Assembly: GCF_000504085.1 (NCBI RefSeq)
Contig: NC_022792.1
Span: 1,268,001-1,332,000 of the forward strand
Origin: Pseudothermotoga elfii DSM 9442 = NBRC 107921
Lineage (GTDB): Bacteria > Thermotogota > Thermotogae > Thermotogales > DSM-5069
DNA: 64,000 bases
Reading direction: 5' to 3'
Numbering within the stretch: the first letter of the stretch is position 1; every line of letters begins with the position of its first letter. The notes beneath the pieces are model-generated. The model searched no databases. It was not told the origin of the DNA and worked only from the letters and a program-made list of their open reading frames with translations. Made by a program: the position numbers and the translations under genes. Positions 9,363 to 33,921 of the stretch are shown piece by piece.

Positions 9363-9714
9363 CTTTGAGTGCATGAAAATTGCCCAGGAAATTTTAACAT
9401 CGAGTACTGATAAGGACAAATTAGAAAACAACTTAAGAAAAGCCCTTGGTGTTCTTCAAGAAGATGGCGTTTATGCAATGTTTCTGTGGCTTGAGGATAA
9501 AGATAAAACAGTCAGAGAAAAACTCACAGGTTTGTTGAATGAACCTGAGATAAAAAGATATCTTTTGAATGATTCAGAAAGATTTGACGAAGATTTTGCT
9601 ATTCTCTGCAGAAACCTGGTAGAAGTCGCAAAAGATATAGATAAATTACTTTTCATGAAAAGAATTATTGAGCGTGCGTTGATCTATGCGTTGTATCATG
9701 CAAAAATCGGGTGA
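9346..9714 (+). CDS. cmr5: Cmr5 small subunit (Cas11 group), second locus
   Basis: A 122-residue helical protein paralogous to 3406-3813; the segments KALGVLQEDGVYAMFLW and RALIYALYHAK align with it directly. It starts inside the 3' end of cmr4 (GGGGGGCGTGA ribosome site; ATG at 9346 or 9349). The expected role is the minor filament of the effector complex. Confidence 0.8.
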   Translation: MMHNLDFECMKIAQEILTSSTDKDKLENNLRKALGVLQEDGVYAMFLWLEDKDKTVREKLTGLLNEPEIKRYLLNDSERFDEDFAILCRNLVEVAKDIDKLLFMKRIIERALIYALYHAKIG

Positions 9715-9719
9715 GAAAG

Positions 9720-10622
9720 ATGTGGAAAAAACTCAATGTCGTCTTCAGATTGAAGAGCCCTCTTCACATAGGCTATATGCCTTTCGAAGTGTTTGTGTTT
9801 TCTCCCACGCGTTACTATGTTCCTGGAAGAAATTTCTGGGGCGCTATAACAAAGAGAATAACAGAATATCTGTATGAAAAACCAAAAGCGGAAAATTACA
9901 AAGATATCGGCGTGAAGGTTATGAAGAATTTCAGGTTTTCTTATTTCTACGTCTATGATGGAAAAACGGTTTATTTTCCGTGTTATACAGAAAATGGTTT
10001 GAAATATGGAGACAACAGCCATGAGATAACCAAATCAGAATTCGAATACAGGTTCATAGGGAGTTTTGTTTCAACTGCGATTGATACCACTGGAACTGCA
10101 AAAGATAAAAGTCTTCACGAAATAGAGTTCATAAACAGCAGGTTCAAAGATGAAAATGGAAACACAAAAGATGTGAAAATAGCCGGGTGTATCTGGATAA
10201 AAGAAGATACAGAAATAGAAAAAATAATTTTGGGTGAAGGCATATTCATAGAAAATTCCAACGTGATAGAAGAACTCATTCTTGGTGGAGAATCGAAGTA
10301 TGGTTTTGGTCATGTTGTTTTGGAATCAATCAATGAGATTTCAGTTTTTGAATGGAACGATCCTGAAAGTGTGGAAATAGGAAGCAAGCTTCTTCCTGCC
10401 CATTTGAAGTATGATGAAAATTTAAAATTCAAGGGAGATATAGAGCTTCTCACGGGGAGAGGATATTACGATCCGAATTCAACAGAAACTGCAGGTGGTA
10501 ATAAACCGGGAGCTGCCATATCGATTCCTGAATATTACTTTGTCCCAGGGACGATCCTAATGGAATCTAAAAAATTCAAAGTGAGATGGGACGGCACCTT
10601 AGAGGTGAGCAAAAATGGATGA
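9720..10622 (+). CDS. RAMP subunit, probably Cmr3-like (Cas5 group), second locus
   Basis: Paralogue of the gene at 3810: VVFRLKSPLHIGY at the start, YYVPGRNFWGAI, an FRFSYFYVYDGKTVYFPCYTE core and the Gly-rich GGESKYGFGHV loop align one to one. ATG 9720 is chosen over GTG 9711 because GGTGAG is correctly spaced and because the N-terminus then matches the first copy. Function as the crRNA 5'-tag-binding Cmr3 is inferred from the subunit set of III-C, not from a specific motif. Confidence 0.6.
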   Translation: MWKKLNVVFRLKSPLHIGYMPFEVFVFSPTRYYVPGRNFWGAITKRITEYLYEKPKAENYKDIGVKVMKNFRFSYFYVYDGKTVYFPCYTENGLKYGDNSHEITKSEFEYRFIGSFVSTAIDTTGTAKDKSLHEIEFINSRFKDENGNTKDVKIAGCIWIKEDTEIEKIILGEGIFIENSNVIEELILGGESKYGFGHVVLESINEISVFEWNDPESVEIGSKLLPAHLKYDENLKFKGDIELLTGRGYYDPNSTETAGGNKPGAAISIPEYYFVPGTILMESKKFKVRWDGTLEVSKNG

Positions 10623-11919
10623 ATACACCATCAAGATAAAGGCGTTGACACCCATATGGACGGGAAATGCAAATAGAAAATGTGAAACTCTTAGAGAAAC
10701 AGGTATCATTGGAAGTTTAAGATGGTGGTACGAAGCGCTGATCAGGGGATTGGGTGGGTATGCATGTGATCCAACAATTGATGGCAGGTGCTCATTGGAC
10801 CAAAAAAGGTTTAAAGAAGCTCTGAAAAATGGTAAATCTCAACAAAAAGCACTGAGTGAACAAATATGCCCAGCATGTCAGTTGTTTGGCTGCACAGGAT
10901 GGGCCAGGAAGTTTATATTACGAATAGAACCGGAGAAATCTTGTTCCTATGCACCGTTTTTTATAGTTAAACTTCCAAGGTCCAGAAATCCATACTTTCT
11001 TGGGTACCATGACAGGTCTGGGAGCGAATATGAAAAGAATGGAGGATTAATTGGAGAATATAGATTGACATTTTTCATTGACGATGAATTTCATATAAAA
11101 CTAATTCACCTGCTTCTAAAACTCGCCACCAACTGGGGAATTGGCTCAGGCATTCAGAAAGGTTTCGGTATTTGTTATATGGAAAGTGATTCCAATTTCT
11201 CCGTGATGAAAATACCAGTTGTGTCTGAAAAAATGACAGAGAAACAAAACTCATTTCTGCCAAGGTTTGATCAATTCTTTTTTTATAGAATTCCGATCAA
11301 CGATACGTATATTGACGGGATCAAAGACGCAATGAAATCCAGTCTCTATAAAATCATGAGAGACCTTCGCAATAAAAAAACAGTGAACTTCGACCTATCT
11401 ACGTTATCGTACATTCCATCAGCCCCATTGGTAAGAAAATCTGTAAGGCATTTATTCAGCGATAATGATGTGCTGAGACATTTCATAATGGGTTTTGCTA
11501 GTATGAACAAACAACCTAAACCGATACATTTAAAATGCTGGACCCATTCTGTGGAAAAAATGGAAAATGACGAGTTTTACTGCAATAATTGCAAGGAAAA
11601 AGTTGTTGAAACAGATATTTTAGAGAAAACTGGTTCGAAAATTTTTGTTTCACACCTCTATAACAAAAACGTTTTTACATGCAATTCCTCATCATCATGG
11701 GAAATGAAAGTATGGGGATGGATTCCAGAAATACCCGAAAAAATAGGCAAGACAAGAGAAGAGATAAAGCAATTATTACAGAGCAATTTTAAGAATGAAC
11801 AATTTTGGAAAGGGGTTTTTTCTACGAAAGAAAATCCTGTGAATATTGGTTCCATCTGGGAATGCTGGGATCCAACTCTTGATGATTTAGTTGATGCAAG
11901 GAGTGAGATCTATGGATAA
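10615..11919 (+). CDS. cmr1: Cmr1-like RAMP subunit
   Basis: A 434-residue protein with the Cmr1 hallmarks: the opening strand KIKALTPIWTGNA, then ETGIIGSLRWWYEALIRGLGG, then the helix CPACQLFGCTGWARKF, and a Gly-rich WGIGSGIQKGFG loop near residue 180. Cmr1 caps one end of the Cmr filament and binds target RNA 3' to the guide. Extra Cys pairs (CPAC; later C..H and CNNC around residue 305-325) suggest a zinc ribbon in the C-terminal half. It overlaps both neighbours by 8 nt. No equivalent lies in the visible part of the first locus, where it would have to be upstream of the window. Confidence 0.85.
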   Translation: MDEYTIKIKALTPIWTGNANRKCETLRETGIIGSLRWWYEALIRGLGGYACDPTIDGRCSLDQKRFKEALKNGKSQQKALSEQICPACQLFGCTGWARKFILRIEPEKSCSYAPFFIVKLPRSRNPYFLGYHDRSGSEYEKNGGLIGEYRLTFFIDDEFHIKLIHLLLKLATNWGIGSGIQKGFGICYMESDSNFSVMKIPVVSEKMTEKQNSFLPRFDQFFFYRIPINDTYIDGIKDAMKSSLYKIMRDLRNKKTVNFDLSTLSYIPSAPLVRKSVRHLFSDNDVLRHFIMGFASMNKQPKPIHLKCWTHSVEKMENDEFYCNNCKEKVVETDILEKTGSKIFVSHLYNKNVFTCNSSSSWEMKVWGWIPEIPEKIGKTREEIKQLLQSNFKNEQFWKGVFSTKENPVNIGSIWECWDPTLDDLVDARSEIYG

Positions 11920-12748
11920 TAAAAGGTGCTACGATTACTATCTGTTAAACAATAGGATCTCTACAGCCGAAAACAATAGGATCTCCATAGCCAAATTGAA
12001 AAGACAAATTCTTGATGAAGTCAAAGCGGAAGGAAGAGATTATATCAGATGCTTTTGCTTTTACCCCAAAGAAGAAGATTTAGCATATCTTCCCAACGGC
12101 TCTGTATTGATCAAAATCACTTTCACCCTCAAAAAGCCATACACAAGTAAAGACGAGGGAGAGTTTCATATTATCGATGACAAAATTTTTGAAAACCCGA
12201 TCGTCAGAGACAAGTTCACAGGACTTCCAATGGTCAGACCTTCAACGTGGAAAGGCCATCTGAGATTTGCTGCCGAAAGAGTTGACTGTCAAAACAAAAA
12301 AGAAATCATAAATCGCCTCTTTGGTTCAGAAACTGAAGACGAAGAAAAATTAAAAGGAAGGCTCTATTTTTTCCCAACATTTTTTGAAGAAGATTCAAAA
12401 AAAGATGTCATCACACCGCTTAAAAGAGATACCAGAACACCAGCCAGAGGTCCAATATTTATGGAAGTTATGAAGCAGGGTAGTAAAGGTGAGTTCTATC
12501 TTCTGTACGTTCCTTATCCCAAAGGAAAAAATTTTGAAGAAAAACAAATCGGAGAGGATCTACATTTTCTTGCGAGCGCTTTGAAACTTATGTTCTATAC
12601 CTATGGATTTTCGGCAAAAAAGACATCTGGTTTCGGGACAATTGAGGAACTGAAAGAAGAAAACATAGAAATTTACCCCAAAGACAAAAAAGGGATTTTC
12701 TCAATATTATACACCACACATAACAATAGAGTTAAGGATGGTGTATAA
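11912..12748 (+). CDS. cmr6: Cmr6-like RAMP subunit
   Basis: A 278-residue RAMP protein. The pattern VRPSTWKGHLRFAA, NRLFGSETEDEEKLKGRLYFFP, then DVITPLKRDTRTPARGPI and a terminal AKKTSGFGTIEE fits Cmr6 (small-residue loop plus K-G-x-L-R, DxxxP, and GAKTxxGYG). ATG 11912 is chosen because AAGGAGTGA precedes it; ATG 11891 would add seven residues. It overlaps the cmr1 stop and ends two bases before the abiEi start, so the toxin-antitoxin genes directly continue this operon. Confidence 0.7.
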   Translation: MDNKRCYDYYLLNNRISTAENNRISIAKLKRQILDEVKAEGRDYIRCFCFYPKEEDLAYLPNGSVLIKITFTLKKPYTSKDEGEFHIIDDKIFENPIVRDKFTGLPMVRPSTWKGHLRFAAERVDCQNKKEIINRLFGSETEDEEKLKGRLYFFPTFFEEDSKKDVITPLKRDTRTPARGPIFMEVMKQGSKGEFYLLYVPYPKGKNFEEKQIGEDLHFLASALKLMFYTYGFSAKKTSGFGTIEELKEENIEIYPKDKKGIFSILYTTHNNRVKDGV

Positions 12749-12750
12749 AA

Positions 12751-13509
12751 ATGAGAATCAACCTGCTGGATCGTCTTGCAAAAAGGGGTAATACTTTTAC
12801 CTTTGAGGAAGTGGTTGAGACATTCAATATTTCAAGAAAAACTCTGTGGGTAATTTTGAGTCGCCTTGAAAAGCGAGGATGGATTGAAAGAATAGAAAAG
12901 GGAAAATATATGATCATTCCTCTTGGTGCTGAAAAGGGTAAATACACTCTGAGTGAGTTTGTTATTGCTTCCACTCTTGTTAAGCCCTATGCGATTGCTT
13001 ACTGGAGCGCTCTTCATTACTATGGTTTGACTGAACAGATACCAAGTACAGTGTTTGTTCAAACTACATCAAGGAAGAAAGAGCAAACCCTCGAAATTTT
13101 TGGAATTAATTACAGAATAGTAAGAGTAGCACAAACGAAGTTTTTTGGCTTTCGAAAAGAATGGATAGAGGAAACTCAAATAACTATTACAGACAGAGAA
13201 AAGACAATTATAGATTGTCTGGATAAACCTCAATACAGTGGAGGAATAATAGAAGTAGCAAAATCCTTGAAGAATGGAAGATTTGATAAAGATAAATTAG
13301 TATCATACGCTGAGAAAATAAATAATTCTGCTGTTCTCAGGCGACTTGGGTTTTTGTGTGAATTTTTGAGAATTGAGATAAACCTACCAGGAATTGAGAC
13401 GAGGAATTACCTGTATCTTGATCCAACAATGCCAAAGAATGGAATCAAAGATGCAAAATGGCATCTGATCGTGAATCTTGACGAGAAAATTCTGGGGGCG
13501 CTGGAATGA
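12751..13509 (+). CDS. abiEi: AbiEi-type antitoxin/transcriptional repressor inside the CRISPR operon
   Basis: A 252-residue AbiEi-family protein. Residues 1-60 form a winged helix (FTFEEVVETFNISRKTLWVILSRL...), followed by the family's C-terminal domain (WSALHYYGLTEQIP, TITDREKTIIDCLDKPQYSGG). In type IV AbiE systems AbiEi represses the operon and neutralises the AbiEii nucleotidyltransferase. It begins two bases after the cmr6-like stop and overlaps the next start by 4 nt, so it is translationally locked between Cmr subunits and the toxin-Csx11 fusion. No separate promoter or palindromic operator is visible right before it, which is unusual for a TA antitoxin. Confidence 0.85.
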   Translation: MRINLLDRLAKRGNTFTFEEVVETFNISRKTLWVILSRLEKRGWIERIEKGKYMIIPLGAEKGKYTLSEFVIASTLVKPYAIAYWSALHYYGLTEQIPSTVFVQTTSRKKEQTLEIFGINYRIVRVAQTKFFGFRKEWIEETQITITDREKTIIDCLDKPQYSGGIIEVAKSLKNGRFDKDKLVSYAEKINNSAVLRRLGFLCEFLRIEINLPGIETRNYLYLDPTMPKNGIKDAKWHLIVNLDEKILGALE

Positions 13510-16500
13510 TTACGCAAAACGAAATGAAGCAGAAAGCGAGGGAATACGGGGTAAATCCATCAACTATTGAAAGAGATTATGCTCAGAATTGGCTATTAAT
13601 GGCTTTGTCTTCCCTTCCTTTAGTTTTGAAGGGAGGAACTGGTATAAGGAAAGTGTATATAAGTAATTACAGATTCTCTGATGATCTTGATTTCACTCTG
13701 CTTGAGGAATTTAGTGCAGAAGAATTTAAAACAACTATCGATAAAGTTATTGAAAAGGCAAGGGAAGAAAGTGGAATGAATTTTTTCGAGGATTTTGAGT
13801 TTCAGAAAAATAATAACGGTTTTGAGATTGATACTTACTTTCAGTTTATGCAGAGAGGTGAAAATAGAACCAAAATAAAGTTGGATATAACAAAAGCTAA
13901 GAATGAAAGAATATTACTACCCGTGCTTATGAAAAAGATAATTCACCCTTATTCTGATGACCTGGACTGTGAAGTAAAAGTATATTCTCTGGAAGAAATA
14001 GTAGCAGAAAAAATAAGGAGTCTGTTTCAAAGAACACGGCCAAGAGATTTATATGATGTTTGGTATCTATGGAGTAAGACGAATGATATCGACAGAAAAG
14101 TGGTTTTCAAAGTTCTTCCTGAAAAACTCAAAGAAAAAGGGGTTCTAATTGACATCCAGGATCTTGAAAGCAGGAAAAATGATTTCAGAAATGCATGGGA
14201 ATTTTCTCTTGGTCATCAATTAAAGGAACTGCCAGATTTTGAAACGGTGTTTTCAACTGTAATTCAAGAGGTGAAGACTATGTGTGTTGAAATGATTAAA
14301 AACAACAGAGAGATGATATTGATCGGGGAAATCTGTGCACTACTTCATGATATTGGAAAACTCCATCCTAATTTTATCAAAACACAGTCTGTAGAAGGCA
14401 TAAAAGGACTGCCTCACCATGCCAGAGGCATAGATCAGCTTATGAAAGCAGAGCTAATTGATTTTTTCAAAAGCATAGATACGAAGATAAACACTGAAAG
14501 CATGTCGATATACGATTCCATCAGGTTTCATCATGATAACTCAACGAATAACATTTTAGAGTGTTTAAAAGAGTGTGACAAGAAAGACTCTGCTGATGAC
14601 AAGGGTATAGTAAGGAGAAAGCAGCACTTGGATAGCACATGGATTTCTTCGCCGTTTGGTCATCCAAAAGAGAAAATAGACCTGAACTGCCTCCAAAAAA
14701 TATTTGATGATCTTCAGGATAATTTGATTGGACTTTTTAAAAATTATACTTCTATGGATAAAAGTTGTTTCAGAAACACTCTGATTAACAACCTCAAAAC
14801 CCCATTTTCTCATGCCCTTGGGGAAACAAGAATTCCGGCAAACGATGTCACTTTGTGGGATCATTCTTATTCAACAGCATCTTTGTTTAAATCTGTTTTA
14901 GCTGCAATAACATGTGGAACAAATCCAAATCCTCAGGATTTAAAATGGAGAATATTCGCTATATGCTGGAATGGAATGGAATTCATAAACAAAGGAAAAA
15001 AGGTGGCTGAGATCCAGTCAAGAAACGATGTGATAGAAAATCTCAAGAAGAAGTTAACGGGGATTTTCGAGGAAGAAATTCCTGTGGGTAATGTGGTCTT
15101 TGAAGACATGAATGGAATTTATTTCACTTTCCCAGACCTGAACAGGGCTTGTGATCTTGCAGAAGAATGTGCAAAAATTGCTTTAGAAACGATTCAAAAA
15201 GAAACCCAGAACGAACTGTGGCCATTTTTCATCTTGAGTGAGGCAACCCGAACTCTCACGATCATTGCTAATGTACAGAGATCTGCATTCGAAAAGAAAA
15301 AGGTACCCAAAATGACACCAGTATTATTTGTTGAAGATAAGGAAAGATATCTGGAAAATCCTGATCTTCCATCCTTTACTGTTAGACAAAGCATATGTCC
15401 TGTTTGTGGTATCAGACCAAGAGATGAAGGAAAAGAAAGATGCAAAATATGTTATAAGCGAAGGCAAGGAAGGCTTTCAAAATGGCTTTCAAACAGAGAA
15501 GAAACTATATGGATAGACGAAGTTGCAGATAAAAACAACAAAATTGCTTTGATATCTTTGAATTTTTACCTTGATAAATGGCTCGATGGAACAATGGTAG
15601 GAACAATTTATTCGCAGACATTTGAAGATTGGTTGAACTCTAAAAAAGCAAAAAAGTTTTTTGAAAATAAACAAAACATTCAAAAGTTAAGAAATAAAGG
15701 AGTAAATATAGAAAAAAAGAATAATATGAATCTGTCGAAGGAGTTACTCAAAACTATTACAGATGAGGATATTAAAGAGGATGCTGGATTTAAAAGCAAT
15801 TTAATAAACACATTTTTTGAAGATATTAGCTCTTCACAGGATCATTCATCTGATGGAAATTATGTCGAAAGATTTGTTAATAACTTAAAGGAACGATTAA
15901 AACCTGAACCATTTAATCCATCTAACCTACAAAAATTGCTTTTCACCCAGAACCCGTCTCCTGCCCGATTGTACAGGATATGGCAGGAAACAACTGAATT
16001 CTTTGATTTGGTAGTTAGTGAGGTAAAAAATAAGATCTACAGCAATAAATGGAAAAGAATAAAGTTTTTCGTAAATTATACTGACTTAAAATCTAAACTA
16101 AAGCAAGGGATGGGAATAGAAGAGAAAACTCCTTACTTAGTTCAAATAGATGATTTAAAGCCACAAAAACTACTCGTTTTTCACGATGAAAATGGAGAAT
16201 TCTATACAATAGAATCTCTTGGAAAATTCAAGTTTAACAATAACATAGGGGAAGAAGCTGTTAAAGAGGCGCTAAAACAGGAATTTAAGCATCTCGCTCC
16301 AGAAGATGATCCAGACGAAAATCTATTGAACAAATCAGTAAAGCCCGACGAAAATAATATAAAAATAGAAGAATACTATCCATTAATTGAAATCAACAAA
16401 TCCCCATTCTCACTTCGCCTAATAGTTCCCGCGCAAGACTCGATGAAAATCATAGCTCTGGTTACAGATCTATACAACGAAATGTTTAAAAGAGTTATAG

Positions 16501-17162
16501 GAAAGCTTTCTTTAAACATCAAGCTCCTTGTGACAAAAAGAAAATTCCCTCTTTATTTATTTCTCGATGCAGAAAACAGAATGCTTGAGGATGAAGAATT
16601 CAAAAAACAAGTGGCAATGGATCCATGGTGGAATATTCAAAGACACGATGAGTTCTATGGTTTTTATCCTGCAAAGCCCGTAGAACATGAGAACAAATAT
16701 ACTCTCGATGATCTGAATCCAATCTCTAAAGGAAAGATCTTCTATCTCTATCCAGGATATTTCGACTTCGATCTACTTTCGGAAAATACAGACAGATACA
16801 ATATAGCTTATTCAAAAGGAGAGAAGATAAAAAGAGCAGATGAGATCTACAGACTCCTCACAGAAAGACCATATTATTTTTATGAAATTTCTGAAATACT
16901 CGAGTTGTGGGATGTTCTAACGAATCTAACCAGTTCACAGATACATTTTGTTGAAGAAGCTCTCACTTTAAAAATCAGGGAATGGAGAGAGGTAAAAGAC
17001 AGAGAAAATGTGTTCATGAACTTTGCAGAGGCAACTCTAAAAGATGCTTTTAACAACAAGTGGGACAAATTGAGAGATGAAACAAAATGGTTTCTTTTGA
17101 AATCAGCCTGTAATGGTCTTTTGCTTGATACTATAAACCTTTTCAAAAGAACACTCGCGTAG
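13506..17162 (+). CDS. fusion of AbiEii nucleotidyltransferase toxin with Csx11 (Cas10-like subunit)
   Basis: A 1218-residue chain. Residues 1-258 are a full AbiEii (DUF1814) nucleotidyltransferase: KGGTG (42-46), RFSDDLDF with D60/D62, KLDIT (D127), EEIVAEKIRSL (163-173) and RPRDLYD (178-184), all motifs thought necessary for catalysis. From residue 259 begins Csx11: LLHDIGKLHP gives an HD pair (H281/D282), a zinc ribbon CPVCGIRPRDEGKERCKIC, and a palm region where GGDD is replaced by KSPF, so cyclase activity should be absent. Met259 (nt 14280) has a well-placed GAGGTG site, so a free 960-residue Csx11, the usual size for the family, could also be made. The fusion suggests RNA-guided control of a nucleotidyltransferase toxin; a lost stop codon by sequencing error is the main alternative. 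Confidence 0.8.
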   Translation: MITQNEMKQKAREYGVNPSTIERDYAQNWLLMALSSLPLVLKGGTGIRKVYISNYRFSDDLDFTLLEEFSAEEFKTTIDKVIEKAREESGMNFFEDFEFQKNNNGFEIDTYFQFMQRGENRTKIKLDITKAKNERILLPVLMKKIIHPYSDDLDCEVKVYSLEEIVAEKIRSLFQRTRPRDLYDVWYLWSKTNDIDRKVVFKVLPEKLKEKGVLIDIQDLESRKNDFRNAWEFSLGHQLKELPDFETVFSTVIQEVKTMCVEMIKNNREMILIGEICALLHDIGKLHPNFIKTQSVEGIKGLPHHARGIDQLMKAELIDFFKSIDTKINTESMSIYDSIRFHHDNSTNNILECLKECDKKDSADDKGIVRRKQHLDSTWISSPFGHPKEKIDLNCLQKIFDDLQDNLIGLFKNYTSMDKSCFRNTLINNLKTPFSHALGETRIPANDVTLWDHSYSTASLFKSVLAAITCGTNPNPQDLKWRIFAICWNGMEFINKGKKVAEIQSRNDVIENLKKKLTGIFEEEIPVGNVVFEDMNGIYFTFPDLNRACDLAEECAKIALETIQKETQNELWPFFILSEATRTLTIIANVQRSAFEKKKVPKMTPVLFVEDKERYLENPDLPSFTVRQSICPVCGIRPRDEGKERCKICYKRRQGRLSKWLSNREETIWIDEVADKNNKIALISLNFYLDKWLDGTMVGTIYSQTFEDWLNSKKAKKFFENKQNIQKLRNKGVNIEKKNNMNLSKELLKTITDEDIKEDAGFKSNLINTFFEDISSSQDHSSDGNYVERFVNNLKERLKPEPFNPSNLQKLLFTQNPSPARLYRIWQETTEFFDLVVSEVKNKIYSNKWKRIKFFVNYTDLKSKLKQGMGIEEKTPYLVQIDDLKPQKLLVFHDENGEFYTIESLGKFKFNNNIGEEAVKEALKQEFKHLAPEDDPDENLLNKSVKPDENNIKIEEYYPLIEINKSPFSLRLIVPAQDSMKIIALVTDLYNEMFKRVIGKLSLNIKLLVTKRKFPLYLFLDAENRMLEDEEFKKQVAMDPWWNIQRHDEFYGFYPAKPVEHENKYTLDDLNPISKGKIFYLYPGYFDFDLLSENTDRYNIAYSKGEKIKRADEIYRLLTERPYYFYEISEILELWDVLTNLTSSQIHFVEEALTLKIREWREVKDRENVFMNFAEATLKDAFNNKWDKLRDETKWFLLKSACNGLLLDTINLFKRTLA

Positions 17163-23521: not shown

Positions 23522-25702
23522 CTATACTTTCAAATCAAACCTGTCCAGAGTCATAACTTTATCCCAAGTTTTAATAAAGTCAGATACAAACTTTTCCTTT
23601 TCATCATCACTCGCATAGACTTCCGCGACAGCTCGCAGTTCATCGTGATGGGCAAAGATAAGATCTACTCTTGTTGCTTTGAACTCCGGCTCTTTTGTTT
23701 TTCTATTAAATCCCTCAAACAAATAACGATGTTCATCTATCTGTTTCCACTCAATATTCATATCCAGCAGATTTACAAAAAAGTCATTTGTCAGAGTGCC
23801 TACAGTATGTGTTAAAACTCCATAATTTTTATAACTGTAAACAGCTCCAAGTACTCTCAATCCTCCAACGATTACAGCCAGTTCTGGCACTGTTAGTTTT
23901 AATAACTGGGCTTTGTCTATTAGAAAATATTCTGGAGTTGTGCTAATATCTGATTCATCTATTTTGTATGGATCTTTGAAGTAATTCCTGAAACCGTCTG
24001 CAAAAGGTTCTATTTCTCTATAAAATTCTTCCTCAACCTGATCTTGAAGGGCATCTACTCTTCCAGGAATGAATGGAACTCTGACATCAAACCCAGCCTT
24101 TTTAGCAGCAAATTCTATAGCAGCACAGCCTCCGAGAACTATCAAATCGGCTATGGAAACCTTCTTGTTGTTTTTTTGCTCTTCATTGAATTTTTTCTGG
24201 ATTTTTTCATAAACCTTTATGATCTTTATCAGATCATATGGATGATTTACCTCCCATAGATTCATGGGACGCAACCTTATCCGTGCTCCGTTAGCTCCAC
24301 CTCTTCTGTCAGAATCTCTGTAAGTTGAAGCTGAAGACCAGGCGGTATAGACCAGTTGAGAAATATTTATACCAGAATTGAGGATCTGCTTTTTCAGATA
24401 TTCAATATCTTCTTCATCGATCAGTTCATAATCTCTTTTGGGTAAAGGGTCCTGCCAGATGAATTCTTCTTTTGGAACATAAGGACCGATATAGCACGAT
24501 TTTGGTCCCATATCTCTGTGAGTAAGTTTGAACCACGCTCGGGCAAAGGCTTTTTCAAATTCTTCGGGATTTTCAAGAAACTTCTTTGCAATTTTTGAAT
24601 AAACCGGATCAAATTTCAAAGCCAGATCAGCTGTGAGCATTCGGGGTTTGTGCCTTCTGTTTGGATCGAAAGGATCAGGAACCATTTCCGGGGCATTTTT
24701 AGCTACCCACTGGTTTTTCCCATCTGGGCTTTTTTCGAGTTCCCATTCGAACTCCAAAAGAAACTTCAAATACTGTATACCAAATTTCGTTGGCTTTGAA
24801 GACCATATGACTTCAAATCCCGATGTATATGTATCAGAAGCCTTACCGGTTTTGTATGTGTATTTCCATCCCAACCCCATTTGTTCTATGGGCGAAGAGC
24901 TTGGGTCTGGACCGAGGTCTTTGCTGGGCCCGGCTCCATGGCATTTTCCAAAAGAATGCCCACCAGCAATCAAAGCCACTGTTTCTTCATCATTCATACC
25001 CATTCTGCTAAAGGCAAGTCTTATTTCTTTGGCAGATCCAGCTGGGTCGGGATTTCCCATGGGGCCTTCAGGATTGACATAGATCAACCCCATTTCAGTT
25101 GCAGCAAAAGGTTTCTCCAGTTCTCCTTCTTTAAAACGCTCTTTTCCACTCAACATTTCCTGCTCGGCTCCCCAATCCGGGCTTTCGTCGGCTTCAAAAA
25201 CATCCTCTCTGCCAAGAGAAAATCCCAGAATTTTTACACCCATATCCTGCAGGGCAACAGTCCCGGCAAGAATAATCAAATCTGCCCAAGAGAGCTTTTT
25301 CCCGTATTTTTTCTTGATAGGCCAGAGTAACCTGATAGCCTTATCGAGGTTTATATTGTCCGGCCAGTTTATCCTTGCTGGAAACCGAATACTGCCGTTT
25401 TTAGCACCACCTCTGCCGTCGTGAATTCTGTAGCTCCCGGCACTATGCCACGAAAGTCGAATAAAAAGAGGACCATAATGTCCAAAATCAGCGGGCCACC
25501 AGTCTTGAGAAGTCTTCATAAGTTTTTTCAAATCTTCTATAACAGCATCAACATCGAGAGTTTTAACCTCTTTGAGATAATCATAATCTGATCCGTATGG
25601 ATTTGAATCTGAACAGTTTTGCCTTAAAATTTTCAGGTTTAGTCTGTTTGGCCACCAATCTGTGATCCACCTTTTTCTTGATTTTCGCTCTTTGCTTTTC
25701 AC
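23522..25702 (-). CDS. katG: catalase-peroxidase
   Basis: A 726-residue haem enzyme that breaks down H2O2. The distal site IRLSWHSAG (R82, W85, H86) and proximal [11 protein letters not shown] are intact; the Tyr in [11 protein letters not shown] and the Met in IEQMGLGW give the Met-Tyr-Trp adduct needed for catalase activity. The duplicated C-terminal domain is present, so the protein is full length. It starts at GTG with GGGGGGAT upstream. KatG is not typical for an anaerobic Thermotogota core genome and may be acquired; it is the only obvious oxidative-stress enzyme here. Confidence 0.93.
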
Positions 25703-25852: not shown

Positions 25853-27568
25853 TTATGTTGTCAATTGATTTTCCACTATTTTTCTGTATGTGGAGGATTT
25901 TTCCATGAGTTCATCATGTGTTCCTTCAGCTTCTACCTTTCCATCGTTCAGTACGATGATTCTGCCAGCCTTCTTTATAGTAGAAAGCCTGTGGGAGATA
26001 ATAACAACAGTATCGATCTCTTTCAAAATCCTTTCAAGTATCCTTTCTTCTGTTTCACTATCTATGCCAGAGGTAATTTCATCCAAGATTAGTATCTGTG
26101 GTTTTCTAATTAAAGCCCTTGCAAGAATGATTCTCTGTCTCTGACCATCTGAGAGTCTTGTCCCTCTTTCACCAACAACTGTGTCTATTCCATTTTCCAG
26201 TTTCTCAACAAAGTCGCATTCGCACATTCTAAGAACTCTTTCTATTTCTTCTTTTGAAAAGTCTTCGAAAAGTGTCACGTTGTTTTTGATCGTTGTATCA
26301 AAAAGTATATCGTTTGAGCGAACAAGAACGATGTTTCTTCTGAGTGAAAGAAGAGAGTATTGCTCAATGGGAACACCGTTTATGAGAATTTCACCCTTTG
26401 CGGGAGACAGTAGTCTGCTGAAGAGAGAAACCAGTGTACTCTTTCCTGCACCAGATCTTGCCACTATGGCTATCTTGTCTCCGGAGTTTATCTCGAGGTT
26501 CAAACCAGCGAGAACAGGTATTTCATCGTATTTAAAATGCACGTTTTTCAACAGCAGTTTTTCGAACTTTTCAAGATTTATGCCGCCTGCTCTTTCAAAA
26601 GGTAGGGAAAACACTCTTGCAAAATTTTCCCAGTTTGGAAGTGTCGAGAAAAACATCGTCAAGCCTGTGAGTGCCATTCTGACAATATCGTACATCCAGT
26701 TCATGTAGGACTCAAAAGCCAGAAGCGTTCCGACACTTATCTCACCTTTCCAGAGAAGGTAAACACCGAAGGCAAGGACAATGGTACCTCCAACCCATCT
26801 GTTCATGTCGATGTTTCTGTTTGACAGTTCGTTTACTGTACTGTGGGTAATGCTCGCCCTGCTCCACTCTCTAGCACTTGAATCGAGGAAATCTCTGAGA
26901 AAAAAGAAGCCAGAAAACTGTTTGAGAACCGGTATTCCTTCCATCACTTCTCTGGATCTTTTCAAAAATCTCTGGTAGGCTTCCTGATCTTTTTGAGAAG
27001 TTTTGATGACCAGCCTTCTCAGGATTGAGGTTGATACAAAAAACAGGGCGATACTCACCAGGACCACAAGGGTAAGTTTTACATTCAAGATGAACAGAAG
27101 CGAAAGAACAACAAGAAAAAAACCCAGATTGAAGAAAAACTGTAGCCTTGCAAGATAAATCCCCGAAGACACCTTCGGAATATCACTCATGAACACCGAA
27201 AGATAGTCACCTGTGTTTTTCGAGCTTAGAAAAGATAGTGGAAGTGTCAGGATTTTTGCATAGGCACCCTTTGATTCTTTAACCCGTGATGCGTTCAGCA
27301 GGTATTTCACAACTGAGTAGTTCAGTCTGTACATGATGAATGTCTGGAACACAAGAACAACAAAGTAAAACATAGAAAACAGAATGACTTCTTCTACAGA
27401 GCCCCTGTAGAATGCACTGTCGATGGTCTTTTTTATGAGAAGTGGAGTGAGAACGTTGGTGGTTAAAAACAGGCTCTCCAGTAACAAGAAAATCGGATAG
27501 TGCTTTTTGTATTTCCTCTCGAATTTTTTGATATTGTCTCTGACCTTACCTGCTGAGAAAAATTTCAT
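25853..27568 (-). CDS. ABC exporter half-transporter (membrane plus ATPase domain)
   Basis: A 571-residue type I ABC exporter: six predicted membrane segments in the first 320 residues, then an ATPase with ARSGAGKST (Walker A), RLSDGQRQR (signature) and ILILDEITSG (Walker B with catalytic Glu). It closes the leftward operon headed by the peptide genes and follows another half-exporter (28507), so the two may form a heterodimer that exports the matured peptide or gives immunity. No peptidase C39 domain is present, so leader removal must be done elsewhere. Confidence 0.85.
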   Translation of the reverse strand: MKFFSAGKVRDNIKKFERKYKKHYPIFLLLESLFLTTNVLTPLLIKKTIDSAFYRGSVEEVILFSMFYFVVLVFQTFIMYRLNYSVVKYLLNASRVKESKGAYAKILTLPLSFLSSKNTGDYLSVFMSDIPKVSSGIYLARLQFFFNLGFFLVVLSLLFILNVKLTLVVLVSIALFFVSTSILRRLVIKTSQKDQEAYQRFLKRSREVMEGIPVLKQFSGFFFLRDFLDSSAREWSRASITHSTVNELSNRNIDMNRWVGGTIVLAFGVYLLWKGEISVGTLLAFESYMNWMYDIVRMALTGLTMFFSTLPNWENFARVFSLPFERAGGINLEKFEKLLLKNVHFKYDEIPVLAGLNLEINSGDKIAIVARSGAGKSTLVSLFSRLLSPAKGEILINGVPIEQYSLLSLRRNIVLVRSNDILFDTTIKNNVTLFEDFSKEEIERVLRMCECDFVEKLENGIDTVVGERGTRLSDGQRQRIILARALIRKPQILILDEITSGIDSETEERILERILKEIDTVVIISHRLSTIKKAGRIIVLNDGKVEAEGTHDELMEKSSTYRKIVENQLTT

Positions 27569-27574
27569 AGCCTC

Positions 27575-28315
27575 TCAATCCTCCGGAAATGCCTGTATCT
27601 CCAAAACACCTCTCAACACTGCCGCTAAATCTTCCTTTTTTGGAGAAAATTCGAGAACTTTTTCGCCCTTTTTCAAAACGATCACCCTGTCTGCGATCTT
27701 TAAATCCTCCAGGTCATGACTTGCAAAGATGACGATTTTACCACTCTCTTTGAGTCTTTTCATGATCTCGTGTATCTTCAATCTCGTTCTGAGATCAACT
27801 CCACTGCACGGCTCATCGAAGATGTATATGCTCGCCTTTTTCATCAGGGCTCTTGCCACATCAACTCTTTTTTTGTACCCGGTGGAAAGTTCCATGTACC
27901 TCTTTTTCCTGCACTCCAGAAGACCCAGTTCCTTCATCACTTTTTCTGTTTCTCTCTTCAACGTTTTTCCAAGAAGGTCATTCAACATACCAAAAAACTT
28001 CAGATTCTCTTCCACACTCAACCTGTAGTAGAAGCTCCTCTCATACCCGGTTGATATGCTGACCTTTTCTACTGCAAAGGAAGGTTTTTCCACGATGTTC
28101 ACACTGTCTATGAGAACCTTCCCTCTATCAGGAATGAGAAAGGAGGCTATAACCTTCAAAAGTGTCGTCTTTCCCGCCCCGTTGGGACCTATCAGTGCGA
28201 GGATTTCGTTCATGAAAATGTCGAAGGAAACATTCTTCAAAATGTGCTTTCCGCCTATGCTCTTGTTAACTTCTCTGAGAGTAATGGCTTTGGTGCGAGC
28301 ACCTTTCCTTTCCAT
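27575..28315 (-). CDS. ABC transporter ATP-binding protein
   Basis: A 246-residue ATPase: IGPNGAGKTTLL, signature LSTGYKKRVDVARAL and IYIFDEPCSG. It resembles NatA/CcmA-type ATPases, which normally work with an ABC-2 permease encoded next to them. No such permease gene lies here; only a short hydrophobic fragment precedes it. It may energise a permease elsewhere or be a residue of a decayed transporter. Confidence 0.8.
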   Translation of the reverse strand: MERKGARTKAITLREVNKSIGGKHILKNVSFDIFMNEILALIGPNGAGKTTLLKVIASFLIPDRGKVLIDSVNIVEKPSFAVEKVSISTGYERSFYYRLSVEENLKFFGMLNDLLGKTLKRETEKVMKELGLLECRKKRYMELSTGYKKRVDVARALMKKASIYIFDEPCSGVDLRTRLKIHEIMKRLKESGKIVIFASHDLEDLKIADRVIVLKKGEKVLEFSPKKEDLAAVLRGVLEIQAFPED

Positions 28316-28506: not shown

Positions 28507-30123
28507 TTAAGAGAATTCCACAATGCCATCACATAAATTCTCCAGGAAATCCCGGGAATGCGAAACGATTAAAATTATAGACTCACCTGATTTGCGTTGT
28601 ATCAGTTCCTCTAATGCTCGGATTTTCATTTCATCCAAATAAGTTGTTGGTTCATCTAAAAGATACAGATCTTTATTATCCTGTGCAAATGTCCTTACTA
28701 TCGCTATTCTCTGGCGTTCTCCCCCGGAAAGGTTGCGCCCAACTTCCTCCACTTCTTTTTCGAGTGAGAGATCATCCAGAAACTCCAACAGTTCCTCATC
28801 AAGAGGTTTATTTTCCCCAAGGAGTATGTTTTCTCTAACTGTTCCCTTGAAAAAGATCGAATGCTGAGGAAGATAGCCGACCCTGCAATAATACGAGTCT
28901 ATTTCAATTTCACTCAATGGTATGTCGTTGACGAAAACATAGTTTTTTTCTATACCTAAGAGTCCAAGAATGATCTTTATTGCTGTGCTCTTTCCTATCC
29001 CACTCTTTCCGAAAAGTCCAACGATTTCACCCTTTTTGGCATACAGTTTGAAATTTTCAAGCAGCAGGGAAGAGTTCTTGTAAGAAAAACTCGGTATGTG
29101 TACCCTCAAAGACTCGATCTTTCTGTCTAATTGTTGCAGTTTGAAAGTGGTATAGGATCTTCCTCCAAATGGCGCTTCTAAAATTTCCGAAAGTCTTTTG
29201 TAAACAACTTTTATCTCTTGGCGGTGTATGTTGAAATCCCAAAAGTTCCTGGCAGAGTCGTAGATGTAGTTTATTACCATCAACACTGCCACCAAACCAC
29301 CAGCTTGCATGAGGCCTATTTTCATTTGATAAACTCCCATGATGATTACTATTATGTATCCACTGTTGAACAATATAGCAAGAGGAACGTTGAATAGAAC
29401 GATTGACTTTATTCGCCTGATATCACTTTTTGTGTACTCGTCATTGAATTCCTTGAATTTTGCTATCGAAAATTTTTGCTTCAAAAACACCCGGAACATT
29501 TCTATACCCTGGATGTATTCCTTAAGCCTGCTTACGAATTCTGTCTGCAATTCGAGAGTTTTGTGTGTTAAACTTCTAACCCTGGGATTCACATAGTGAG
29601 CTAAGACAAAAAAAGCCAGCAGAGGAAAGGTCGATACCGCAATCGCCAAAGGATTTAGGAAAAGACCGATGGTTAAAGCGAATGAAAACGTGAGTAAGTC
29701 TTTCATGAAAAATACGAAAGTTGGATAGAAAAAATTTTGAATTCTTTCCGTATCCGAACTGATGTAGGTGAACAATCTACCCATCTCTAAGGAAAAAACC
29801 TGGTTAAAGTTGTTCTGAGCCACCTCAAATATTGTTTTCCTAAGTGATGCAGAGAAAAGTCTCATTCTACTTTCAAAGATGTAATATGAAGCGTATGTTA
29901 GAAATTCTTTTGACAGGCTTACCACTAGAAGTAGCATTACTTGGATTTTGAACAGATTGTCTGAAATACTCTTAGCCAGTATAGAGTTGATGATATTTTT
30001 CGAAAGCAACGGAATGGGGATAGTCATCCCCGTTGCACAAACAAGCAGCAAAAAGGCAAAAAACAAGTGTAAAAAGTGTTCTTTAAGAAGCCTCAATATC
30101 TGCCTTTTAGTCGAGCTTTTCAT
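28507..30123 (-). CDS. ABC exporter half-transporter (membrane plus ATPase domain)
   Basis: A 538-residue half-exporter with six membrane segments, Walker A GKSGIGKSTA, signature LSGGERQR and Walker B LYLLDEPTTYLDE. Its start overlaps the end of the radical-SAM gene by 17 nt, tying it to peptide maturation; export of the modified peptide is the likely role. It differs strongly from 25853-27568, consistent with two partners of a heterodimer or two separate steps (export and self-protection). Confidence 0.85.
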   Translation of the reverse strand: MKSSTKRQILRLLKEHFLHLFFAFLLLVCATGMTIPIPLLSKNIINSILAKSISDNLFKIQVMLLLVVSLSKEFLTYASYYIFESRMRLFSASLRKTIFEVAQNNFNQVFSLEMGRLFTYISSDTERIQNFFYPTFVFFMKDLLTFSFALTIGLFLNPLAIAVSTFPLLAFFVLAHYVNPRVRSLTHKTLELQTEFVSRLKEYIQGIEMFRVFLKQKFSIAKFKEFNDEYTKSDIRRIKSIVLFNVPLAILFNSGYIIVIIMGVYQMKIGLMQAGGLVAVLMVINYIYDSARNFWDFNIHRQEIKVVYKRLSEILEAPFGGRSYTTFKLQQLDRKIESLRVHIPSFSYKNSSLLLENFKLYAKKGEIVGLFGKSGIGKSTAIKIILGLLGIEKNYVFVNDIPLSEIEIDSYYCRVGYLPQHSIFFKGTVRENILLGENKPLDEELLEFLDDLSLEKEVEEVGRNLSGGERQRIAIVRTFAQDNKDLYLLDEPTTYLDEMKIRALEELIQRKSGESIILIVSHSRDFLENLCDGIVEFS

Positions 30124-31405
30124 GTTCTTTCACCAACTTTAACACTTTGTTGGAATAAAGCAAGTTTATCGGGACTTTTGGATCGAGTTTATAATTGGCG
30201 AGCTCCCATAAAATAGTGAAAACGCTTTTTAAAAATATATCACAAGTCAAACTGTCAGCTTGTGCTTCGAAGTAATTTTTTCCGGAAAGTAAGTCAACTG
30301 CCCTACATCCACCACCACATAAATATTTTATAGGACAATTTGGGCAAATTTTTTGAACGATAGGCGACCCAAAACCTGTTTGACTTCGAAACAGATGAAT
30401 ATAATCCCTTAGTTTCTCCGATTCTGTAATATGGCAGATTTTAAATTTATCATTTATTAATTCGCTGCACGGATACAAATAACCATCCGGTCCAAGAGAC
30501 AGTTGATTGTAAAGCGCGGAGCAGTTGTATCTCTTAAGTTGATTGAGTAATCTAAACTTAATCTCCTCAACAAAATAGATTTTAACTTTATTATAATGAA
30601 GTGAGTAATAAACTAAGAACTGATATAAATCAATTAATTCCTCACGAAAAGGGATCAATTGATTAATTTTTGCTCTTCCATAATTTTCAATAATTGGAAA
30701 GTGAATAAAGTTAATACCTATTTTTTCACTATATTTTATGAACTTTATAACCTCGTCTTTGTTATAAGAATGTAATGTGTAACTTAGAGCAATATCAGTC
30801 TTCGCATTTTTCAGTTTGGCTACATTTTTGAGTAATTTTCGAAAATTTCCACCACGTACTTTTTGATAAGTATTTTCATGCACCGCATCAAGGCTAATTT
30901 GTACGTTAAACCGCGGAGTCGTCAATATGTCTTCTATTTTATCTAATAAAAGTCCGTTGGTTAATAAGAAAATTTTTGCATTTGTTTTTTCTAATATCTC
31001 TGTTAATAAATTTCTTAAATGCGGCCAAGTTAGGGGCTCACCCCCACCTATTGTTACATTCTCAATATTGTATCGATTGATAAGATCGATGATTAAAGGA
31101 ATATATTCTTTATTGAGCATCTGATAGTTTTCGTCCGGTTTTGATTCATAGAAGCAATGAATACACTGCAAATTGCAATTAAATGTTGGGAGTATTGATA
31201 TCCCAATGAAGTTGGGGAATGTATTACCCTTTAGATTTTTCATCTCTTTTTCATTTGGCTTTTTGTCCTCGAAAACTTTAATCAAATCCTGATTGCTGTT
31301 TTTGCATTTTAAAGCCGACCTTTTGTCGACAATTATCCATCTGAGAGTGTCTGAGTCAAAACATAAGCAATAATCACTTTTTATATCCTTAAAAAACCGC
31401 TGCAT
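30107..31405 (-). CDS. radical-SAM SPASM peptide-modifying enzyme
   Basis: A 432-residue enzyme. The radical-SAM cluster motif CNLQCIHC lies near residue 81; GGGEPLTWP follows. The C-terminal SPASM region binds extra Fe-S clusters (Cys in GPDGYLYPCSEL, then CPNCPIKYLCGGGC). The first 60 residues may form a leader-peptide-binding domain of the RRE type, which is not provable by eye. It lies directly downstream of the 36-codon peptide gene and upstream of an exporter, so it probably installs thioether or other side-chain links in that peptide (sacti/ranthipeptide-like). Start ATG follows AAGGAGGAAG. Confidence 0.88.
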   Translation of the reverse strand: MQRFFKDIKSDYCLCFDSDTLRWIIVDKRSALKCKNSNQDLIKVFEDKKPNEKEMKNLKGNTFPNFIGISILPTFNCNLQCIHCFYESKPDENYQMLNKEYIPLIIDLINRYNIENVTIGGGEPLTWPHLRNLLTEILEKTNAKIFLLTNGLLLDKIEDILTTPRFNVQISLDAVHENTYQKVRGGNFRKLLKNVAKLKNAKTDIALSYTLHSYNKDEVIKFIKYSEKIGINFIHFPIIENYGRAKINQLIPFREELIDLYQFLVYYSLHYNKVKIYFVEEIKFRLLNQLKRYNCSALYNQLSLGPDGYLYPCSELINDKFKICHITESEKLRDYIHLFRSQTGFGSPIVQKICPNCPIKYLCGGGCRAVDLLSGKNYFEAQADSLTCDIFLKSVFTILWELANYKLDPKVPINLLYSNKVLKLVKEHEKLD

Positions 31406-31443: not shown

Positions 31444-31608
31444 GAAGGGTGGGGGAGGAAATTTTTAATGCACGAAGTATGAGCAATGAGCAGCTGAGAG
31501 CGAACAATTCACCCTGGCGGCTGTGACTTTAAAAATCAACTTTTTCACATCTGACCATTTTAGTAATATTTTCATTCTAACACCTCCTCATGACTTTCCC
31601 CCCACCCT
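31444..31608. repeat. inverted repeat flanking the precursor peptide gene
   Basis: GAAGGGTGGGGG at 31444-31455 on the plus strand is found again as CCCCCACCCTTC at 31597-31608, a perfect 12-bp inverted repeat with purine-rich extensions. In the leftward mRNA the two arms enclose the precursor gene and the upstream arm is 14 nt before its GAGGAGG ribosome site. The arms could pair as a long-range stem, or the downstream CCUCC could instead mask the ribosome site. Confidence 0.7.
31465..31575 (-). CDS. 36-residue RiPP-type precursor peptide
   Basis: A very short gene with an excellent ribosome site (GAGGAGGTGTTAGA before ATG 31575) ending 59 nt before the radical-SAM start. The product has a basic amphipathic first half (MKILLKWSDVKKLIFKV, leader-like) and a core-like second half, TAARVNCSLSAAHCSYFVH, with Cys24 and Cys31 among small residues and Ser, the kind of pattern modified to thioethers by SPASM enzymes. 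Length, position and ribosome site together make it the likely substrate of the enzyme at 30107. It has no recognised family; product structure is unknown. Confidence 0.75.
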   Translation of the reverse strand: MKILLKWSDVKKLIFKVTAARVNCSLSAAHCSYFVH

Positions 31609-31646
31609 TCTGAATACCATCGTGAAATTGCTTTTATTTTCATTAT

Positions 31647-31812: not shown

Positions 31813-32145
31813 TTAATAAGGAGGCCAAGCATAAATATCGAATGAACTGCGCTGGTATGGCTCTTGCACCTGCCCAGTAGTGCAGATGGAATGCAAATGG
31901 ATTTGGTCTTGTAATAAAGTATCATGCTGCAGTGCCCCCTCCCACACTTTTGCCGGTTGCTTCATAGTTGAATCACATCCTTCCCAAGAGGTGCTGCTTT
32001 TGCACTCTTGAAGATAACCACCGGCAGTTCCACCAATCACAGAATTCCAAGAGTGCGTTTCATTGTCTGCGTCTGTTCTATCTGCAAAGGCAGTTACGGA
32101 AAGAAGCAAAAACGCTATAAAAATTACAAGAAGAGCTTTTCTCAT
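31813..32145 (-). CDS. small secreted protein of the peptide locus
   Basis: A 110-residue protein with a clear signal peptide (MRKALLVIFIAFLLLSVTAFA). The mature part (about 90 residues) is polar, has three Cys (QECKSS, EGCDST, SICTTG) and many His/Gln/Trp, and matches no family I know. ATG 32145 follows GGAAGGGGGCGGG and puts the signal peptide at the very start. It is the first gene of the leftward peptide operon; it could be an immunity protein, an exported structural peptide or a second precursor. Confidence 0.65.
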   Translation of the reverse strand: MRKALLVIFIAFLLLSVTAFADRTDADNETHSWNSVIGGTAGGYLQECKSSTSWEGCDSTMKQPAKVWEGALQHDTLLQDQIHLHSICTTGQVQEPYQRSSFDIYAWPPY

Positions 32146-32316
32146 TTTCCCGCCCCCTTCCATTTCCTTTCGCTTCAACTTCTATCAAACCCTATATGGT
32201 TTTCAACTTTCGCACGCTCCGGATTCCTGTCTACAAGAGCGTTTCAGATTGCCAATTTTTATAGGATCTGGAACAATTTGATTTTTTGAAGTATAACTAT
32301 AACGGAGAGAGCAAAG

Positions 32317-33921
32317 ATGAAAGGTATAGTGGACTTGAAAGAAGTATTCAGGTACGGTGCTTTTTCTCTTCCAGCAGTGAATTACATGCTACTCGAAGAG
32401 AACCTTTCAAAAGAGTGTAGAGAGATTCTCTGTGTACTGAAACTTGCATGGAAAGGGAACTTCAAAGAAGCGGTCCAGAGAATAGATAAGGTTTTGAGAA
32501 GCTGCAAATCCGAAGCAGCGAAATATTTTCTTTTAGCGAACAAACTCGCATTTTTAAAATATACAGGCAAAGTAGATATGAATCTTTACAGATACCTGAA
32601 AAGAAACCTTCCCAAAATGTCAAAATCAATAAGAGACACTGTGATCGTTACCTTGATAAATTTTGAAGCAAGTGGAATAAAGCCACTGAGGAAGGTAAGA
32701 GTGTGGAAAAACAATTACAGAAAATCCACTCTATCTTTTTTATACCTTTCCCTGGCAAGAAGAAAAGCAAACTCTGGAAGACTCTCTGAGGCGGCACACG
32801 ATTACATACAAGCCTACAGACTGTCCAGGGAGATTCCCCACCCAACTTGCATCGTTTCCTCCCTGAACGATCTTGCATGGGATATCAAGGAAAAACACCC
32901 AAGACTCGCCCATGTCCTTTCTCAAAGAGCCATTTTCTGGCTTGGATACTATAGAGAAGAACCAGGAAATCTCTTTGGAGCGCTGGATACTCTATTTGTT
33001 ATGGAAAAAGATATGAATTCACCGTTTATCCACAGCACTGCGCATATCATCGTTTCACTTCCTGTACCAGAAGATTATCTGTCTCTATTCAAAAAAGCGA
33101 AGAAGTTCGTGTTGGACTACACCAGATCGATTTATCCAAACACAAGTCAGTTGAGAAGATACATTAAAAGGGTCGCTTGGAAAGGAAAACCTCTCAGTTC
33201 CAAAGGTATCTCGGATATATTGAAAGGAAAAACAAAAATGATTCGTGCGGATACGATAAGAAGACTGTTGACATCTGATGTTGATGCATGGGCACGCTTT
33301 CCTGTCTGGAACGAGTGGATAAAAATGGAGATTGAGCTAAAATTCAAGGAATTGCCAGAAAAGCTTAAAGAATTTCCCTTTCATCAGAGACAAATCCTTT
33401 TTCTTTCCACTTACATGGCTTTTCTTGATAGAGAATTTCTTTCAAGGAAAGAAAGACTCAAAAAGGCATACACACTCCTTGAAGATATTGAATCGTTCGC
33501 TGACTTCATGGCAAAAGATCACCGGACCATGGAATTTGTTGTTTCAATGGTGAAGGCTCATCCTTTCATTGAAGGAAGAAAAGAAGCGGTGAAGAAAGCC
33601 CTTGAAAGGATGAAAAGAAGGAAACTGGAAAGATTCACTTTGAAATACATCGAGATGAAAGAATCTGACAGAAGGCTTTTGGATAAATTTCTAAGAAACT
33701 ACGGAAGGTACTATGGAGTGAGGTTTGGCATCAGGTTAAAAGGGCCGGATGTGGTGAGAGAGTTTGCAAAAAAGTACCATCTAAAAATTCAGCCTTTGTT
33801 CGCTACATTCTGGTGTGAGGAAGATAGCAGGGTGAGAAAAAGATTGGAAAAAATGATGAAAAGATGGTGCGAATCTGGCGAAAAAGTTTCTGTCCAGTGC
33901 AAAAAAGCAAATAATTATTAA
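32317..33921 (+). CDS. TPR-like helical protein, possible peptide-responsive regulator
   Basis: No named family recognised. The 534-residue chain is almost entirely helical, basic, with helix-turn-helix pairs reminiscent of TPR repeats (SFLYLSLARRKANSGRLSEAA, AHVLSQRAIFWLGYY) and a short segment near residue 300 (SSKGISDILKGKTKMIRADT) that could be a DNA-binding helix pair. No signal peptide. It is divergent from the peptide operon, with a GGAGAG site before its ATG. TPR regulators that bind exported peptides (as in Rap/PlcR-type systems) give a model, but the role is inference. Confidence 0.5.
   Translation: MKGIVDLKEVFRYGAFSLPAVNYMLLEENLSKECREILCVLKLAWKGNFKEAVQRIDKVLRSCKSEAAKYFLLANKLAFLKYTGKVDMNLYRYLKRNLPKMSKSIRDTVIVTLINFEASGIKPLRKVRVWKNNYRKSTLSFLYLSLARRKANSGRLSEAAHDYIQAYRLSREIPHPTCIVSSLNDLAWDIKEKHPRLAHVLSQRAIFWLGYYREEPGNLFGALDTLFVMEKDMNSPFIHSTAHIIVSLPVPEDYLSLFKKAKKFVLDYTRSIYPNTSQLRRYIKRVAWKGKPLSSKGISDILKGKTKMIRADTIRRLLTSDVDAWARFPVWNEWIKMEIELKFKELPEKLKEFPFHQRQILFLSTYMAFLDREFLSRKERLKKAYTLLEDIESFADFMAKDHRTMEFVVSMVKAHPFIEGRKEAVKKALERMKRRKLERFTLKYIEMKESDRRLLDKFLRNYGRYYGVRFGIRLKGPDVVREFAKKYHLKIQPLFATFWCEEDSRVRKRLEKMMKRWCESGEKVSVQCKKANNY

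Follow-up and report, generated by a model that had tools for sequence, protein, structure and literature searches.

The peptide operon described here lies on the minus strand of the window, i.e. the whole 64 kb stretch of DNA that was analysed. A 36-codon ORF (31465-31575) starts with ATG and encodes the peptide MKILLKWSDVKKLIFKVTAARVNCSLSAAHCSYFVH, and 59 bp downstream of it follows the gene of a 432-residue radical-SAM/SPASM enzyme (30107-31405), here called the maturase. Behind it come ABC exporter 1 (28507-30123), whose gene overlaps that of the maturase, an ABC transporter ATPase (27575-28315) and ABC exporter 2 (25853-27568), all on the minus strand. On the other side of the 36-codon ORF we find a 110-residue ORF with a Sec-type signal sequence, SEC (31813-32145, minus strand), and, divergent to the operon, the gene of a 534-residue regulator-like protein, REG (32317-33921, plus strand). 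The preliminary description had given the order as precursor, radical-SAM enzyme and ABC exporters, which is what we observe, and its ORF of 36 residues with six residues between two cysteines (C24 and C31) is confirmed on the sequence.

The ATG of the 36-codon ORF is preceded by GAGGAGGTGTTAGA, with GGAGGTG just 5' of the start. ORFs of 30-50 codons in the 64 kb window have 695 start codons, and GGAGGTG stands at the proper spacing before this one alone. The site had been called the best ribosome site of the locus; its uniqueness holds, but the superlative can be disputed, given the AAGGAGG of the radical-SAM gene. Searches of Pfam and NCBIfam with the peptide gave no family match at a meaningful score. 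A second peptide-like match in the same genome (988343) was discarded as a chance hit, antisense to a TatD-like gene.

Relatives carrying the same enzyme were searched for the short ORF, as the preliminary description had proposed. A Thermosipho MAG (G032), from another family of the order, encodes an equally long, 67% identical peptide of 36 residues directly 5' of the orthologous maturase (64-66% identity), with start and stop conserved. The short ORF is thus conserved in a relative with the same enzyme, and a 67% identical peptide directly before the orthologous enzyme in another family puts the ORF beyond chance and supports its claimed role as precursor for the adjacent radical-SAM/SPASM enzyme. 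Between the two coding sequences pS is 0.889 and pN 0.211, and 23 of the 38 differences fall on third codon positions. The lowest pN, 0.12, is found in the cysteine-containing residues 21-36, compared with 0.28 for residues 1-20. If the ORF were no gene, being open by chance or lying in conserved DNA of purely regulatory function, its shortness and the missing family match would be expected, but the contrast of pS and pN is confined to the coding frame and absent from the shifted frames, the homolog has exactly the same length with both ends conserved, and the ribosome site is unique within the window. We regard that explanation as hardly credible; judged from its sequence evolution, the ORF is a real, conserved protein-coding gene.

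Intact copies of the peptide are present in two of 103 Thermotogota genomes, that of the window and G032. In G016 a decayed remnant is found (L080, about 7941-8081), where a deletion has fused the first 25 residues of the peptide to the maturase at an NCSA stretch common to both, and in G014 the maturase is decayed, with exporter and regulator intact. Two intact copies together with decay in two further genomes indicate a peptide system of patchy distribution that is passed on as a unit and has existed long enough for it to decay in other genomes.

The maturase contains a complete CX3CX2C motif and the full set of SPASM cysteines. It matches Pfam Radical_SAM with 77 bits, and Pfam SPASM with 17.0 bits, below the cut-off of 21.5. 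The nearest solved structures are anSME, SkfB, CteB (5wgg) and YydG. Matches in NCBIfam are generic and none passes the cut-off of a curated maturase model; the best is PapB with 82.8 of the required 340 bits, the AlbA model gives 57.8 against 850, and the StsB model is also far below its cut-off. Structure prediction from a two-sequence alignment reached a mean pLDDT of about 46 and was left unused. One distant relative of the maturase, and no more, was found in the viral contigs, and the plasmid maturases among the matches listed are less than 30% identical. In G032 the maturase gene has a one-base frameshift in a T-run (L022, about 2700-2715), possibly an assembly error.

Exporter 1 matches Pfam ABC_membrane and ABC_tran and has no N-terminal peptidase domain; in G032 and G014 its ortholog is the gene that immediately follows the maturase. 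Exporter 2, with the same two Pfam domains, is 86% identical to one in G021, which we take to be Thermotoga maritima MSB8. The ATPase between them matches ABC_tran and is about 91% identical to a Thermotoga one over partial length; the neighbouring permease of that locus is absent here, and the gene may be a mosaic or a remnant. Neither a leader protease nor a dedicated immunity gene was recognised. Directly behind the peptide operon lies, by eye, a catalase-peroxidase-like gene (23522-25702), unusual for an anaerobe, and at 9711-17162 CRISPR type III-like effector genes, for RAMP and Cas10-like proteins, were identified by eye alone.

The precursor ORF is enclosed by an inverted repeat. Its 5' arm, GAAGGGTGGGGG (31599-31610, minus strand), lies upstream of the ribosome site and is complementary at 12 of 12 positions to the 3' arm, CCCCCACCCTTC (31444-31455, minus strand), which stands just after the stop codon. 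At the corresponding places G032 has arms of a different sequence, beginning AAGAAGGTGCAGGG, that are complementary to each other at 19 of 20 positions, and in both genomes a T-run follows the 3' arm. When the flanks were shuffled base by base, none of 3000 shuffles of each reached the native arm lengths. The native duplexes have energies of -27.4 (window) and -32.4 kcal/mol (G032), against -20.5 and -10.9 with the arms swapped, and folds of the whole segments give z of -2.5 and -3.9. Arms that differ between the genomes and are complementary within each are suggestive of covariation, which here rests on two sequences, since two intact peptide copies exist among the 103 genomes. The segment 31380-32340 matches no Rfam family and lacks a classical terminator, and none of its promoter-like sites exceeds those of shuffled sequence. 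We rejected an origin of the repeat as the end of a mobile element, because its arm differs between genomes and is present in full at one place in the genome, the next best site having one mismatch. We infer that the enclosing stem stabilises the message and acts in part as a terminator, which would raise precursor relative to enzyme.

REG belongs to a family with relatives in 56 of 101 genomes and up to 11 matches per genome. Its members are in no NCBIfam family, and no relative was found in plasmids and viral contigs. Scanning 24 members against Pfam gave HTH_26 in twelve, HTH_3 in nine and TPR_12 in six, with the HTH in mid-chain, at about residues 290-345, and the family alignment contains the common block LSxIxxGKxKxIRGxTLRKI. 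The REG of the window has no significant Pfam match when scanned alone; its assignment as a TPR-like protein with a central Cro/C1-type HTH comes from the family alignment, in which the first helices of the HTH look shortened in the window's clade. In a PDB profile search with REG a Cro/C1-like protein aligned at 284-354 with an E-value of 0.61, alone not significant, and no RNPP chain was found. A single-sequence structure prediction (mean pLDDT about 46) was left unused. By a strict motif test, a maturase lies within 9 kb of the regulator at 15 of 36 loci. In G032 no regulator was found elsewhere in the genome, and the contig with the locus ends before the regulator position. In L069 (7754-11469) and L077 (8481-12199) a two-gene insertion, a transposase-like gene and a partner, lies beside or inside the regulator gene, which in L077 is split by it.

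Two features recur next to these regulators. One is a homologous short ORF whose N-terminus is hydrophobic and of Sec type; divergent to the regulator and starting within 420 bp, it is present at 33 of 44 loci (a few doubtful by eye, e.g. in L025 and L072) compared with 11 of 191 control genes. The other is the motif TTGA[AC]ANNCATAT, here the TTGAMANNCATAT element: 25 of 46 regulator genes have it within the 450 bp 5' of the gene, and none of 198 controls does. The controls were drawn from neighbour genes at these loci and are not corrected for phylogeny, some related genomes contribute repeatedly, and the motif had been recognised at these loci before it was counted there; it is the contrast with the controls that carries weight and not the exact numbers. 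The element is present at regulator loci in the window, G068, G080, G081, G021 and others. A longer form, TTGAMANYCATATRG, has 24 sites in eight whole genomes, where the reversed pattern has none; for about half of these sites a regulator gene starts within about 500 bp. In the window the matching promoter element, a putative operator, is TTGAAAACCATATAG (32192-32206, minus strand), and the candidate propeptide is SEC, which with 110 residues is longer than the secreted ORFs of the other loci (35-82 residues); DRTDADNETHSW is a stretch from its post-signal part. From this arrangement we infer that the promoter element is the binding site of the regulator, whose ligand would come from the secreted ORF.

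Taken together, the ORF 31465-31575 is likely to encode a RiPP precursor, a ribosomally made peptide that would be modified by the radical-SAM enzyme and exported, with the whole control scheme as follows. The operon would start at the TTGAAAACCATATAG promoter under control of the divergent TPR-HTH regulator, whose probable stimulus is a peptide made from the short secreted ORF beside it, and production would then depend on cell density. The enclosing stem may stabilise the message of the precursor as one unit whose 3' boundary is leaky; precursor would then be produced in excess over enzyme. The maturase would recognise the N-terminal half of the peptide as leader and introduce a crosslink or another modification near the two invariant cysteines of the C-terminal part, and ABC exporter 1 would secrete the modified peptide. 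The exported peptide is thus probably controlled by a pheromone-like pair, and the novelty of the locus lies more in this regulatory setting.

The status as radical-SAM RiPP precursor rests on architecture and conservation, and the candidate product is a sactipeptide, a ranthipeptide, a cyclophane or an epimer. A cysteine thioether is the most likely of the maturase's products, with about an even chance, and the modified peptide most likely acts on competing relatives, an assignment for and against which we see equal weight; that it acts as a signal is rather unlikely. The preliminary description had placed the locus among the sacti/ranthipeptides, a class that is unproven because the maturase passes no curated cut-off. 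A sactipeptide or ranthipeptide bacteriocin, whose enzyme makes cysteine thioethers and whose product kills related thermophiles, would agree with two invariant cysteines inside the most conserved part of the peptide, a maturase related to SkfB and CteB with PapB as best NCBIfam match, and adjoining exporters. The PapB and AlbA scores, however, are a fraction of their cut-offs, the peptide has neither the SCIFF nor the CX3D pattern, other radical-SAM chemistries leading to a cyclophane or an epimer are possible, and no immunity gene was recognised. We therefore hold this specific combination of class and function as possible but tentative. Still another role, in which the regulator would sense the modified 36-residue product as the density signal, agrees with the position of the regulator next door, and TM1316, which lies in a comparable locus, is connected with stationary phase in the title of Frock et al. 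2013 (AEM 79:6637, cited in PMC13157175). The constant partner of the regulator is nevertheless the short Sec-signal ORF, and the peptide is intact in two genomes while most regulators have other cargo or none, which makes such a role improbable. The neighbouring short secreted ORF is a better signal candidate than the 36-residue peptide.

The pairing of regulator and secreted ORF could also have nothing to do with pheromones, the ORF encoding an envelope protein or other exported cargo and the regulator sensing something else. Ligand and binding are putative, the SEC of the window is long, and the HTH is central, unlike that of RNPP receptors; against this, the secreted ORF is short at most loci and tightly paired in divergent orientation, and the regulators are multi-copy paralogs with a common promoter element. 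We consider this explanation doubtful, though a real contender. The pheromone reading, in its general form, is that Thermotogota have their own, undescribed family of peptide pheromones with several copies per genome, some of them driving radical-SAM operons, here with a stem that sets the ratio of precursor to enzyme; as a whole we rate it just short of an even chance. The candidate parts of the family are a regulator that combines TPRs with a Cro/C1-type HTH in mid-chain, a divergently encoded, Sec-exported propeptide of 35-110 residues and the TTGAMANNCATAT element. A literature search of limited scope found no described pheromone or RNPP system in Thermotogota and nothing on TM1315. To our knowledge, cell-to-cell peptide signalling in Thermotogota has so far rested mainly on the TM1316 observation. 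If true, the pheromone system would provide a rule of three parts (regulator, propeptide, promoter element) that can be tested in several families of this early-branching phylum of thermophiles, and the 36-residue precursor represents a precursor family absent from Pfam and NCBIfam, with a thermophilic maturase that is possibly convenient for enzymology.

The comparison with TM1316 suggested in the preliminary description is apt. The island in G021 has a 31-residue ORF, MQKMPKPVVPNDYLNPGKGCGGAGLVCGWCG, with a radical-SAM gene and an array of ABC exporters behind it; as in the window, a small secreted ORF is also present and a regulator of the REG family is encoded divergently. Regulator identity is 47-84%, with 47% for the regulator of the TM1316 locus, and exporter 2 is about 75-86% identical, with about 80% for that locus. 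The precursors, in contrast, are unrelated and the maturases are 21-26% identical, that of the TM1316 locus about 21%. TM1316 is flanked by two local hairpins (by eye), where the window has one enclosing stem; the two hairpins would have the effect proposed above for the stem. At the place of the promoter element, the regulator of TM1316, which is a more distant family member, has an inverted repeat of another sequence, AGATCACAAAAGATCT. Further modules of the G021 island contain Cys-rich short ORFs; those beginning MEFLN (L060, 4935-5430 and 8089; e.g. MEFLNDPLEVFKPVGDIMCCDKNGNCDCINTVCNDCAC) are likely precursors of another radical-SAM module.

With the PapB and CteB ranthipeptide maturases (SCIFF peptides, freyrasin) the locus shares a radical-SAM/SPASM enzyme beside a short Cys-containing precursor, and CteB is among the nearest solved structures. 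It differs in a maturase far below the PapB cut-off and in the peptide, which has two cysteines and no CX3D, where the ranthipeptide motifs are six cysteines in about 45 residues and Cys-X3-Asp (PMC8172795). The operon logic resembles that of subtilosin (sboA-albA) and of SkfA/SkfB, SkfB being another of the nearest structures, but the maturase is far below the AlbA cut-off and the thioether is putative here. In the streptide system a quorum-type Rgg regulator controls a radical-SAM RiPP (reviewed in PMC8326336), an association that recurs here with control as proposed above; unlike streptide, the peptide has no KxxxW core, and the HTH of REG lies in mid-chain. Compared with the RNPP regulators (Rgg, NprR, PlcR, PrgX, Rap), the HTH is central and not N-terminal, and ligand, reimport and binding are putative for REG. 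The REG family nevertheless resembles them in the combination of a Cro/C1-type HTH with TPRs, in its many copies per genome and in its pairing with a short Sec-signal ORF, which stands out against the control genes in the counts above.
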